Translations under genes and position numbers: made by a program
Notes under the pieces: model-generated
Told to the model about the DNA's origin: nothing
The model's database searches: none
The model's input: the letters and a program-made list of their open reading frames with translations, nothing else
Source: Neobacillus sp. YX16
Lineage (GTDB): Bacteria > Bacillota > Bacilli > Bacillales > Cytobacillaceae
DNA: 64,000 nt
Direction of reading: 5' to 3'
Assembly: GCF_030123505.1 (NCBI RefSeq)
Contig: NZ_CP126115.1
Coordinates: 2,742,001 to 2,806,000, forward strand
Part shown: one piece after another, positions 1-57,806 of the stretch
Numbering within the stretch: the first letter of the stretch is position 1
How the letters are laid out: the number at the start of each line of letters is the position of its first letter

Positions 1-260
1 ACAACAACATCAATATTATTATCAATAAAACTAAGCCGTTCTCTTGAGACCTGCGTCCATTCACTCGAAAAATCCATTGCTGACAAAATATGTCTAAGAC
101 TAAAAGAATATCTATCATTTAATTGTGAAATGACATAACTTACTCCTATATGTTTCCCTTCATCTTTTTTCAAAATGTCCTGGATGTCGCTTTTTACCCA
201 ATCTGGTGCAACAGCAACCGTTTTTTTTAGCAATACTTCATATTCTTCAAAAAGCATCAT
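1..260 (-). CDS. Hypothetical protein, 3' end beyond window edge
   Basis: The reading frame runs leftward from an ATG at 260 and is still open at base 1, so only the first 86 codons are seen. A clear GGAGGAATAA ribosome binding site sits directly upstream, which fixes the start. The visible N-terminus (MMLFEEYEVLLKK...) is soluble and mixed-charge, with no signal peptide or membrane segment. I do not recognise the family. The frame quality and the ribosome binding site make a real gene likely. Confidence 0.6.
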   Translation of the reverse strand, partial: MMLFEEYEVLLKKTVAVAPDWVKSDIQDILKKDEGKHIGVSYVISQLNDRYSFSLRHILSAMDFSSEWTQVSRERLSFIDNNIDVV

Positions 261-55076: not shown

Positions 55077-55120
55077 AGGATGTCAACCAAATTGACATCC
55101 TATTTCGGATTTTGTATAGT
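55077..55120 (+). promoter_or_regulatory. MarR promoter with embedded palindromic operator
   Basis: AGGATGTCAA-CCAAA-TTGACATCCT (55077-55101) is a perfect inverted repeat. Its right arm supplies TTGACA (55092-55097), and TATAGT (55115-55120) follows after exactly 17 bases. The core TGTCAA-N5-TTGACA recurs at 56193. The same hairpin may also end the upstream MBL transcript. Confidence 0.75.
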
Positions 55121-55134
55121 AGGTGGTGTAGAAT

Positions 55135-55587
55135 ATGATTGGAGTGAAACATTTGATTTCAAACTCTGAATTACAACATTTAGATCTGATTGACTTATTA
55201 AGTGAACGGCATAGTTTAGTTCGGAAAATTTCAGAAACGTCATGGAATAATCAAAGTGAGATCCATATTTCAAATTCAGAATGGTATATCATGGCAAGGA
55301 TTTATAAAAGAAAGCCGAACATTTCGTATATTACAAAAAATGTAGAAATCTCTCGTCAGGCGATACATAAGTTTATCAATAAACTTTCTGAAAAAGGGTT
55401 AGTACAAGTTGAAAATGTTGAAAACAATAAGAAAGAAAAGTGCATCCAATTAACAGCATTAGGTGAGGAATGCTACGAAAAAAACGAGGCCCTGAAGGCT
55501 CAGCTTGAGAATAAAATTGCTGAAAAAATTGGTCCTGAGCAAGTAAGTGTTCTAAAAGAAATATTAAAGCTAGATTGGAATATTTAA
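55135..55587 (+). CDS. MarR-family transcriptional regulator
   Basis: A 150-residue winged-helix repressor. The DNA-binding region is SYITKNVEISRQAIHKFINK (about 62-81), followed by the wing KGLVQVENVENNKKEKCIQL. It probably binds the palindrome in its own promoter and the copy before the CarD-like and MFS genes; this is inferred from the shared site. Binding of a hydrophobic drug would release it. ATG 55135 is used here, but the predicted transcription start near 55127 favours TTG 55153 after GGAG. Confidence 0.8.
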   Translation: MIGVKHLISNSELQHLDLIDLLSERHSLVRKISETSWNNQSEIHISNSEWYIMARIYKRKPNISYITKNVEISRQAIHKFINKLSEKGLVQVENVENNKKEKCIQLTALGEECYEKNEALKAQLENKIAEKIGPEQVSVLKEILKLDWNI

Positions 55588-55594
55588 TAATTTG

Positions 55595-55632
55595 AAAACC
55601 CACGCTTTGTGTAACAGAGCGTGGGTTTTTTT
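55595..55632. terminator. Bidirectional terminator
   Basis: AAAACCCACGCT and AGCGTGGGTTTT form the stem between convergent MarR and CarD-like genes, followed by TTTA. Confidence 0.85.
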
Positions 55633-56134
55633 AGTTAATTCCCTTGATTAATCTAATAATCATTTCATTTATATCTTCGTAAGAACAGTTTAATGAAATT
55701 GCTAATTCTTTAAATAATATATTTTGTGAAGAGATCAAAAGCTTACAGTCTTGTTCATTAAGTTTTTTTTCGTGGAGTTCAACTTCGATTTTTTTCCTCA
55801 TTAGCGTATTGAATACTTTAGCAATCTCTTTTCTATCACCTGTGCTTAAAATATCGGAAAAAATAGTAAGACTTAGAGTTGCTTTGTCATACCACTCTAC
55901 CCCTGGATAGTTAAAGGATTCAAGTATTTCTTGTGCTTCCTCTTTTTGAATCAGATCAAGAATCGCCACTTTATCATTATTAACAGGAATACTTATCGTT
56001 AAATGATGTTTATTATCCATTGGATTTAGAACATAATAGCTTCTCGTAATACCTGAAACGGTCTTCTCGCAAATATCGTTAATTTTACATATACCATGTG
56101 CGGAATAGATAACCAAATCTCCAATATTATACAT
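55631..56134 (-). CDS. CarD/CdnL-like RNA polymerase-binding protein
   Basis: A 167-residue protein with an N-terminal CarD_CdnL/TRCF-RID domain (MYNIGDLVIYSAHGICKIND, about 1-60) that contacts the RNA polymerase beta subunit, and a helical C-terminal domain. Relatives stabilise open complexes. B. subtilis YdeB is a comparable short form. ATG 56134 lies five bases after TAGGAGTG. It is divergent from the MFS gene and its promoter shares the palindrome at 56193. Confidence 0.8.
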   Translation of the reverse strand: MYNIGDLVIYSAHGICKINDICEKTVSGITRSYYVLNPMDNKHHLTISIPVNNDKVAILDLIQKEEAQEILESFNYPGVEWYDKATLSLTIFSDILSTGDRKEIAKVFNTLMRKKIEVELHEKKLNEQDCKLLISSQNILFKELAISLNCSYEDINEMIIRLIKGIN

Positions 56135-56169
56135 TTGTTCACTCCTAATAAAAATCGTCAACTAAGTTT

Positions 56170-56233
56170 ATAATAAAGCAGAAAAAATATTTTGTCAACT
56201 TGGTTGACATTTAAAGAAAAAATTTGATATATT
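56170..56233. promoter_or_regulatory. Divergent promoters sharing one palindromic operator
   Basis: TGTCAA-CTTGG-TTGACA lies at 56193-56209. Leftward, the left arm reads TTGACA and is followed after 17 bases by TATTAT (56175-56170), driving the CarD-like gene. Rightward, TTGACA (56204-56209) is followed after 18 bases by TATATT (56228-56233), driving the MFS gene. Both -35 boxes are therefore inside the operator. Confidence 0.75.
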
Positions 56234-56342: not shown

Positions 56343-57806
56343 ATGAGTACACAAATTCAAGTTAAAAATCCTAAAACAATGGCATTTGTCTTAATGTTAG
56401 GTGCTTTCGCAGGATTATTCGGGGAAACGGCTTTGAACATGGCATTATCAAATATTATGGAACAATTTTCAGTTCCAGCTGCGACTGCACAGTGGCTGAC
56501 AACAGGATATTTATTAGTATTAGCGATTTTAGTGCCAATCTCAGCTCTATTAATGAAATGGTTTACGACAAGACAATTAGTCATCGGGGGACTTGCTATT
56601 TCGTTGTTAGGAGCAATTTTAGCAGCGCTAAATTTCAGTTTTGGTATTTTATTACTTGGTCGTGTCGTACAAGCCATTGGAACTGGTCTTTTATTACCGG
56701 TCATGTTAAGTGTGATGCTTCTTATTTTCCCAATTCAGAAGCGTGGAGTTGTAATGGGGCTTATGGGTCTTGTTATTACACTTGCTCCAGCCTTAGGACC
56801 AACACTTTCAGGAGTTATTATAAGTACGTTAAGCTGGCCATATATTTTCTGGTTTAGTGCCATTGCTTATGTATTATTGATCTTGGTTGCCGTAGTAAAA
56901 ATTGAGAATGTTTCGGAAATTACCAAGCCTAAAATTGATATTTCGTCGATTCTTTTATCAACAATTGGTTTTGGAGGATTAATTTTTGCTTTGAGTACGA
57001 TGGCTGAAGTAGCTATTTCATCTCCAAAAGTATGGGCACCTTTACTAGTAGGTATTATCGCACTACTATCATTTGGTATTCGTCAAAATAAAATGGCTCA
57101 GCCTATGGTTAACTTAAGTGTCTTTAAATATCCAATGTTTACATTAGGGACATTGACGATGTTTCTTGGTATTTTAATCATTTTATCAACAGGAATTTTA
57201 TTACCAATGTATTTAAAAGGTGCTTTATTATTTAGTGCGGCGATGGCTGGTTTATTATTACTTCCTGGTAATGCAGTTAACTTTATTCTTTCACCCATTG
57301 TAGGAGCTCTGTTCGATAAAATTGGAGCGCGTCGTTTCACCATTATTGGCTTCATATTTGTGTTAGTGGGGAACGTCGTTTTTCTATCTACTATTTCAAG
57401 CCATACACCTGCATGGCAAATTGTTGTTCCATTTATGATTTTATTCTTTGGGTTAACGATGGTCATGATGCCAGCACAAACAAATGCAATGAATCAATTA
57501 CCTCGTGAGTTATATGCAGACGGATCAGCAGCTATGAATACATTGAATCAAGTAGCTGGGGCAGCTGGCACAGCGATTGCCATCACGGTATTTACAAGTG
57601 GTCAAAACAGCCATGTAATGGATTTTCCTAATGCATCCCAGCCTGAAATATTAGCTGCAGGAATTAAATATGCCTTCTACTTTATTACTGGGATCTCTGT
57701 AGTTGGATTAATTAGTTCTTTCTTTGTAAAAAAAACAAGCACAGTAACGGAAAAATCTTTAGCAGCTGTGAAAACAACAGAAGCTGTTCGCAGTTTGTAT
57801 ATTTAA
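56343..57806 (+). CDS. MFS drug efflux transporter, DHA2 (14-helix) type
   Basis: A 487-residue membrane exporter with about 14 hydrophobic segments, of the EmrB/QacA subgroup. Family markers are NIMEQFSVPAATAQWLTTGY in helix 1-2, FGILLLGRVVQAIGTGLLLP (motif B) and GPTLSGVIISTLSWPYIFW (motif C), the antiporter signature. It expels drugs or hydrophobic toxins in exchange for protons. AAAAGGAG precedes the ATG. MarR control is inferred from the shared palindrome. A terminator follows. Confidence 0.88.
   Translation: MSTQIQVKNPKTMAFVLMLGAFAGLFGETALNMALSNIMEQFSVPAATAQWLTTGYLLVLAILVPISALLMKWFTTRQLVIGGLAISLLGAILAALNFSFGILLLGRVVQAIGTGLLLPVMLSVMLLIFPIQKRGVVMGLMGLVITLAPALGPTLSGVIISTLSWPYIFWFSAIAYVLLILVAVVKIENVSEITKPKIDISSILLSTIGFGGLIFALSTMAEVAISSPKVWAPLLVGIIALLSFGIRQNKMAQPMVNLSVFKYPMFTLGTLTMFLGILIILSTGILLPMYLKGALLFSAAMAGLLLLPGNAVNFILSPIVGALFDKIGARRFTIIGFIFVLVGNVVFLSTISSHTPAWQIVVPFMILFFGLTMVMMPAQTNAMNQLPRELYADGSAAMNTLNQVAGAAGTAIAITVFTSGQNSHVMDFPNASQPEILAAGIKYAFYFITGISVVGLISSFFVKKTSTVTEKSLAAVKTTEAVRSLYI

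Follow-up and report, generated by a model that had tools for sequence, protein, structure and literature searches.

The window, the whole stretch of 64,000 nucleotides analysed here (Neobacillus sp. YX16, contig NZ_CP126115.1, positions 2,742,001 to 2,806,000), contains a marR gene and a carD-like gene that converge, as well as an MFS exporter gene that diverges from carD; the nearest named protein relatives of the window's genes are mostly from Neobacillus. Two copies of the palindrome TGTCAA-N5-TTGACA, which the sequence-only reading had placed at 55081–55097 and 56193–56209, are both exact, and the elements around them are laid out as follows.

55081–55097, unstranded: operator upstream of marR, TGTCAACCAAATTGACA (from the sequence; kept in relatives)
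55092–55097, + strand: marR −35 box TTGACA, the right operator arm (from the sequence)
55115–55120, + strand: marR −10 box TATAGT, 17-bp spacer (from the sequence)
55141–55146, + strand: probable marR Shine-Dalgarno sequence GGAGTG (read by eye)
55153–55587, + strand: marR, winged-helix MarR-family protein, 144 aa from TTG (150 aa from ATG 55135)
55595–55632, unstranded: terminator-like hairpin common to the convergent ends of marR and carD (read by eye)
55631–56134, − strand: carD-like gene, 167 aa, divergent CarD subfamily (Pfam, model)
56156–56172, unstranded: second, weaker operator, CGTCAACTAAGTTTATA, 3 mismatches, overlapping the carD −10 box (clearer in relatives)
56170–56175, − strand: carD −10 box TATTAT (from the sequence)
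56193–56209, unstranded: operator between carD and the MFS gene, TGTCAACTTGGTTGACA (from the sequence; kept in relatives)
56193–56198, − strand: carD −35 box TTGACA, 17-bp spacer (from the sequence)
56204–56209, + strand: MFS −35 box TTGACA (from the sequence)
56228–56233, + strand: MFS −10 box TATATT, 18-bp spacer (from the sequence)
56343–57806, + strand: DHA2-family MFS exporter, 487 aa, LmrB/EmrB-like (profile scores)

The promoter geometry that had been proposed holds as well: the first palindrome supplies the −35 box of marR, followed after 17 bases by TATAGT, and the two arms of the second form the −35 boxes of divergent promoters for carD (17 bases, TATTAT) and the exporter (18 bases, TATATT). 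The marR operator can be extended to 9-bp arms (GGATGTCAA-CCAAA-TTGACATCC), and the weak operator at carD lies 37 bp from the strong one. The marR gene probably starts at TTG 55153, behind GGAGTG, rather than at ATG 55135. A GGAGTGAA..TTG block is present in many relatives, residues 1–6 of the longer protein have pLDDT values below 50 in the model, and the ATG would have almost no leader if transcription begins about 7 bases past the −10 box.

The exact palindrome TGTCAA-N5-TTGACA occurs only twice in the 6,231,385-base genome, both times in the window, with about 0.7 copies expected from base composition; the number alone is not above chance, given that the backward-read control also occurs twice. 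Their placement, by contrast, is unusual, since two random sites would fall within 1,112 bp of each other with a probability of about 4e-4. Across the genus genomes, too, exact sites are no commoner per genome than backward-read controls, and the case for an operator therefore rests on placement. A large direct MarR regulon is unsupported, since at ≤1 mismatch the core GTCAACYWRGTTGAC matches only the two window sites in this genome, against 4 matches for the backward control. A further 20 places in the genome match TGTCAAN5TTGACA with one mismatch (judged by eye, on their centres only).

Many MarR proteins respond to phenolic or drug-like compounds or to oxidants. The window protein scores 29.7 bits against HTH_27 (cut-off 22.2), and 21.9 and 22.5 bits against MarR and MarR_2, under the respective cut-offs of 24.6 and 27. 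Its model superimposes on ST1710, FabT, MarR and MexR with TM scores of 0.65–0.74, and the winged-helix MarR domain that marks membership of the family was found. All 42 MarRs compared share R74, Q75, H78 and K79 in the predicted recognition helix.

CarD-family proteins are present in many Firmicutes. The window CarD combines an N-terminal RID (CarD_TRCF) domain (49.7 bits, Pfam cut-off 23) with the helical C-terminal domain CarD_C (29.6 bits, cut-off 23.1); its model has a mean pLDDT of 87.5 and matches six CarD chains at TM 0.73–0.80 and five other CarD/CdnL chains at 0.46–0.64, with 20–23 percent identity to solved full-length CarD/CdnL chains. A wedge Trp at the N-end of helix 3 is present in >95 percent of CarD proteins according to excerpts of PMC4593161. 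This residue, a usual rather than strictly defining CarD feature, is absent from its column in all 80 sequences aligned (the window protein has Ala). Trp 81, by contrast, is found in every one of 80 sequences, the window protein and 79 relatives (L157, whose carD is frameshifted, was left out), and lies near the wedge helix, four residues before the wedge position in an ungapped match to the M. tuberculosis chain. An Arg at the place of M. tuberculosis R47 occurs in 0 of 80. The only other RID match in the genome falls in a 1193-aa open frame, read as Mfd, and four other stand-alone Neobacillus CarDs are 27–29 percent identical to the window CarD, have Met at the wedge position and lack Trp 81. 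As judged from these comparisons, the window protein is a member of a divergent CarD subfamily without the usual wedge tryptophan. The exporter scores 281.6 bits against the DHA2 profile TIGR00711 (cut-off 230.2), and 459.8 bits against the LmrB model, under that model's 800-bit cut-off.

Loci of this CarD subfamily were found through two peptide patterns and scanned with the CarD alignment; the best 80 of 103 are the named loci considered here, and their genera include Neobacillus, Planococcus, Oceanobacillus, Ureibacillus, Paenibacillus and Clostridium. MarR lies within about 4 kb of carD in 69 of these best 80. Within 150 bp before carD, an operator with ≤1 mismatch is found in 61/69 MarR-linked loci versus 2/11 others, and in 2 of 2,444 control windows of 150 bp from the same loci. 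Conservation of both palindromes, which the sequence-only reading had put forward as a check, is thus evident among relatives: at ≤2 mismatches the site precedes carD in 67/69 MarR-linked loci and marR in 53/69. Eight of the 69 have no site at ≤1 mismatch before carD, and L137 and L154 have none at ≤2, the former carrying a variant operator with a 4-bp centre near marR. The two loci with an operator (≤1 mismatch) and no nearby MarR, L109 and L158, have MarR elsewhere in their genomes. The other nine genomes without a nearby MarR gave no MarR match genome-wide at E ≤ 1e-15; eight of them lack a site at ≤2 mismatches, and L121 has a 2-mismatch site. Counted by genome, then, an operator with ≤1 mismatch precedes carD in 63/71 with MarR versus 0/9 without.

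The geometry of the carD promoter is conserved along with the site. Of the 70 named loci that carry an operator, 63 have a −10 box at 17-bp spacing behind the right operator arm, and in 58 the box differs from TATAAT at no more than one position (about 5 percent for random anchors drawn from these regions). The consensus in the named loci is AT-TGTCAAC-YWR-GTTGACA-AT, in which the selection of sites biases the 12 positions of the arms but not the centre and flanks; the central YWR and the flanking AT are conserved even though they played no part in picking sites. The idea of a single operator at carD fits the strong one at 56193–56209 but not the many relatives (45/80 named loci) in which two operators with ≤2 mismatches stand 37–50 bp apart, mostly 37 or 44–46 bp. 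Upstream of marR, the operator (≤2 mismatches) is also found in 29 of 34 loci of relatives, within 160 bp, and TTGA(C/A)N-16..18-TATA(T/G/C)T precedes the gene in 58/69 named loci; autoregulation of MarR would nevertheless not be universal, because 16/69 marR genes have no operator at ≤2 mismatches. Among the counted targets, the carD operator is, on these sequences, the most constant.

Specificity was examined in 16 genomes hand-picked from the 69 with carD and marR. The perfect core GTCAACYWRGTTGAC occurs 18 times in 12 of the 16 genomes, against 4 occurrences of the backward control, and 17 of these 18 fall at the carD locus, 16 of them as confirmed by sequence and the other by coordinate. 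The eighteenth, in the Ureibacillus genome of L178 (about 1501–1515), lies outside the carD locus and is flanked by two genes, one read as encoding an aldo/keto reductase and the other a luciferase-type oxidoreductase. Across 299 genomes of the order, which the MarR and CarD searches were taken to cover alike, 18 have both genes, 4 MarR only, 6 CarD only and 271 neither (Fisher p ~3e-20, a value that overstates independent events since the genomes are related). In each of the 18 genomes with both, carD and marR share a contig and are no more than about 2.1 kb apart. Two of the 22 MarR matches in the order (G222, G360) contain a stop codon.

Closer to the window, 35 of the 120 genomes searched have MarR, the window's own genome included, and 34 loci of relatives were fetched for operator counts. 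The operator (≤1 mismatch) stands within 160 bp before carD in all 18 of these loci with a carD start, and 13/25 exporter genes have an operator within 160 bp upstream, several others having it 200–280 bp away. Gene order varies, with marR and carD tail to tail, carD divergent from marR, or the exporter divergent from marR, and the carD copies situated away from marR in L069–L072 (4.4 kb off in L072) each have a one-mismatch operator upstream. Among 60 genomes of the genus, in which score class served to separate the carD subfamily from other stand-alone CarDs, four of which were also examined by direct comparison, 23 have the subfamily and 22 of these have MarR, versus 12 of the remaining 37 (Fisher p ~7e-7); the sole carD genome without MarR (G029) has a site of 2 mismatches only.

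On these sequences carD has probably been lost repeatedly among the close relatives, several of which, with carD deleted or broken, still have marR, operators and exporter. Six of the seven relatives without carD that were inspected by eye keep its first codons between the operators and a terminator-like hairpin, and the end points of the truncated gene differ among L035, L036, L039, L042, L044 and L047. In L074 (G120, the same species), carD is split into two frames, with marR, both operators and the exporter frame present. Operators also occur before other genes in this group: one precedes a DUF1275 gene in L070 (4260–4276, one mismatch, adjoining carD) and in L077 (3893–3909, perfect, without carD), and two Neobacillus have a perfect copy at a matching place (L075, 3959–3975; L076, 4043–4059) adjoining an unnamed gene of 142–150 aa without a Pfam match.

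The sequence-only reading had tied MarR, CarD and the exporter together through one operator holding both −35 boxes. The shared operator is upheld by its conservation, but the constant partner of MarR proves to be carD and not the pump. A DHA2-type exporter is found in 22 of the best 80 of 103 loci and was not found in the other 58 (stretches of ≤4 kb per side, ORFs <80 aa left out of the neighbour lists), and the exporter is accordingly rejected as a core partner of MarR. All 12 named loci with an MFS gene diverging within 500 bp have its −35 box in the opposite arm of the operator, followed after an 18-bp spacer by TATA(T/G)T. Among further neighbours, a gene of a Usp cluster (one member checked by Pfam) occurs in 12/80 named loci, and a one-cluster gene lies downstream of carD on the same strand in L122, L129, L148 and L159; two of these four were checked and belong to the ArsC family, which in our reading is Spx-like. 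L101, L107 and L111 encode a full-length third GyrB between carD and marR, at about +560 to +2490 relative to the start of carD. Immediately before this gene stand two operators separated by 45 bp, of which the first lies within a terminator-like hairpin identified by eye. Each of these genomes has three GyrB/ParE-type genes, the other two being 72–74 percent (read as the housekeeping GyrB) and 55–58 percent (read as ParE) identical to the L107 GyrB; 31 positions are fixed differently between the third and the housekeeping GyrBs (3 and 4 sequences), and the window's genome has only the housekeeping-GyrB and ParE kinds. The other identified neighbours of marR and carD are of unrelated kinds between lineages. 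The conserved unit is, as far as these loci indicate, MarR plus CarD, and the exporter an optional passenger.

The placement and conservation of the sites, the promoter geometry, the linkage and co-occurrence of the genes, and the predicted folds are observations that, taken together, make it very probable that a conditional CarD-family factor of RNA polymerase is held off by a dedicated repressor of MarR type and is made once a signal has released MarR. Binding by MarR, the direction of regulation, the signal and every effect of the window CarD are what we infer in this scheme. A MarR-family dimer would bind the palindrome AT-TGTCAAC-YWR-GTTGACA-AT. At carD it would cover the −35 box and, in genomes with a second copy 37–50 bp downstream, also the −10 box and start, so that RNA polymerase could not engage; in the window the same operator would also close the exporter promoter, because its other arm is the exporter's −35 box. 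At its own promoter MarR would cover the −35 box and thereby regulate itself. Release of the dimer by the signal would then allow CarD to be made, plus the exporter where present, and CarD would bind RNA polymerase and alter the lifetime of open complexes at many promoters. With few other strong sites apparent for MarR, the signal would spread by way of CarD.

It is conceivable, if somewhat unlikely, that the window CarD acts only locally or has lost its RNA-polymerase function, a situation compatible with the switch itself. The divergence of the subfamily (no wedge Trp and no Arg at the R47 place in any of 80 sequences) and the loss of carD in close relatives point in this direction, yet RID and CarD_C score above their Pfam cut-offs, the model is CarD-like, the invariant Trp 81 (80/80) sits near the wedge helix, and mycobacterial CarD, according to excerpts of PMC10232725, binds polymerase without choosing a DNA sequence. 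A role for the exporter alone, in an ordinary MarR-controlled drug pump with carD as a hitch-hiker in between, seems quite improbable. Several Neobacillus without carD do keep marR, the operators and the pump (6/7 of those inspected retaining the first carD codons), and MarR is found in 12/37 genus genomes without the carD subfamily; however, 58/80 named carD loci are without such an exporter in the stretch examined, the operator precedes carD in 67/69 MarR-linked loci, and the four carD copies distant from marR (L069–L072) have it too. Some MarR proteins act as activators, but it is very unlikely that this one does, or that another regulator uses the operator, as the sites overlap the −35 box and in many loci the −10 box and start of near-consensus promoters, the usual place for repression, and the operator tracks this MarR across genomes. 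That the palindrome is merely the back-to-back −35 boxes of divergent promoters, as its two TTGACA arms, both used as −35 boxes in the window, might suggest, is barely credible and was rejected: both arms stand before carD even without a divergent exporter (e.g. L099, L101, L103), conservation extends to the centre (YWR) and the AT flanks, a second copy lies downstream of the −35 box, and the operator tracks MarR, carD in MarR-less genomes being without a site of ≤1 mismatch (9/9).

Searches of open-licence papers showed no description of a CarD-MarR or CdnL-MarR circuit, or of the operator string. In E. coli marRAB, MarR represses its own gene together with that of MarA, a sequence-specific transcriptional activator of the AraC type that broadens the response. 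The circuit proposed for the window is like marRAB in outline, with a predicted repressor over itself and a wide-acting transcription factor, but its effector is of another kind, namely a CarD-family protein that has a promoter to itself and often two operators; any exporter present is served by the same repressor site. As in MarR-controlled MFS exporters and the LmrA/YxaF-LmrB systems (names taken from NCBIfam and Pfam), the exporter promoter is predicted to be under a local repressor; unlike in those systems, its operator also serves carD. The window CarD shares with the CarD/CdnL proteins of Mycobacterium, Thermus and Myxococcus an RID, a helical C-terminal domain and a similar fold, but at 20–23 percent identity and without the wedge Trp.

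In M. tuberculosis CarD is essential (PMC10232725, in excerpt), whereas the window carD is an accessory gene beside a repressor. Excerpts of the same source describe mycobacterial CarD as activating or repressing through open-complex stability and as affected by supercoiling (PMC10232725), and weakening the CarD-polymerase contact reportedly sensitises mycobacteria to antibiotics and to oxidative stress (PMC7505949, in excerpt). A stress-linked CarD switch is plausible by analogy, because mycobacterial CarD is tied to open-complex stability, supercoiling and stress sensitivity. CdnL1 and CdnL2 of Bacillus cereus are, like the window protein, CarD-family factors of Bacillaceae, and cdnL (BC4714) is reported to be induced by several stresses, disinfectants among them (excerpts of PMC4746229 and PMC4947961). 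The text of PMC4947961 makes no mention of MarR, and that of PMC4746229 mentions it once, for BC5038, which is tabulated among upregulated genes with no link to cdnL.

The presence of a conserved repressor-operator-CarD unit in many Firmicutes suggests that a general transcription helper may be made switchable by some signal. The linked, conserved repressor would be a natural switch, in that an inducer would turn CarD on in a genome without another stand-alone CarD, and the circuit would extend marRAB logic to a factor acting on RNA polymerase without choosing a DNA sequence. It is tempting, though unlikely to prove right, to propose that the signal is a compound (a plant phenolic, for instance, or an antibiotic directed at GyrB) that disturbs DNA topology or transcription initiation, and that CarD answers the damage by steadying open complexes on relaxed DNA or under impaired initiation. 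The passengers, though different from lineage to lineage, would fit this proposal, being either an exporter for the compound (MFS) or a third GyrB preceded by two operators (3 genomes). If it were true, CarD would be an inducible tolerance factor in Firmicutes.

The surroundings of carD itself also vary among the named loci. In seven loci of Clostridium type (L113, L114, L118, L120, L128, L133 and L145), carD adjoins a gene read as recA; five of these seven have neither MarR in the genome nor the operator, and L113 and L120 have both. In L131 and G320:C47, a tandem pair of carD copies stands beside marR.
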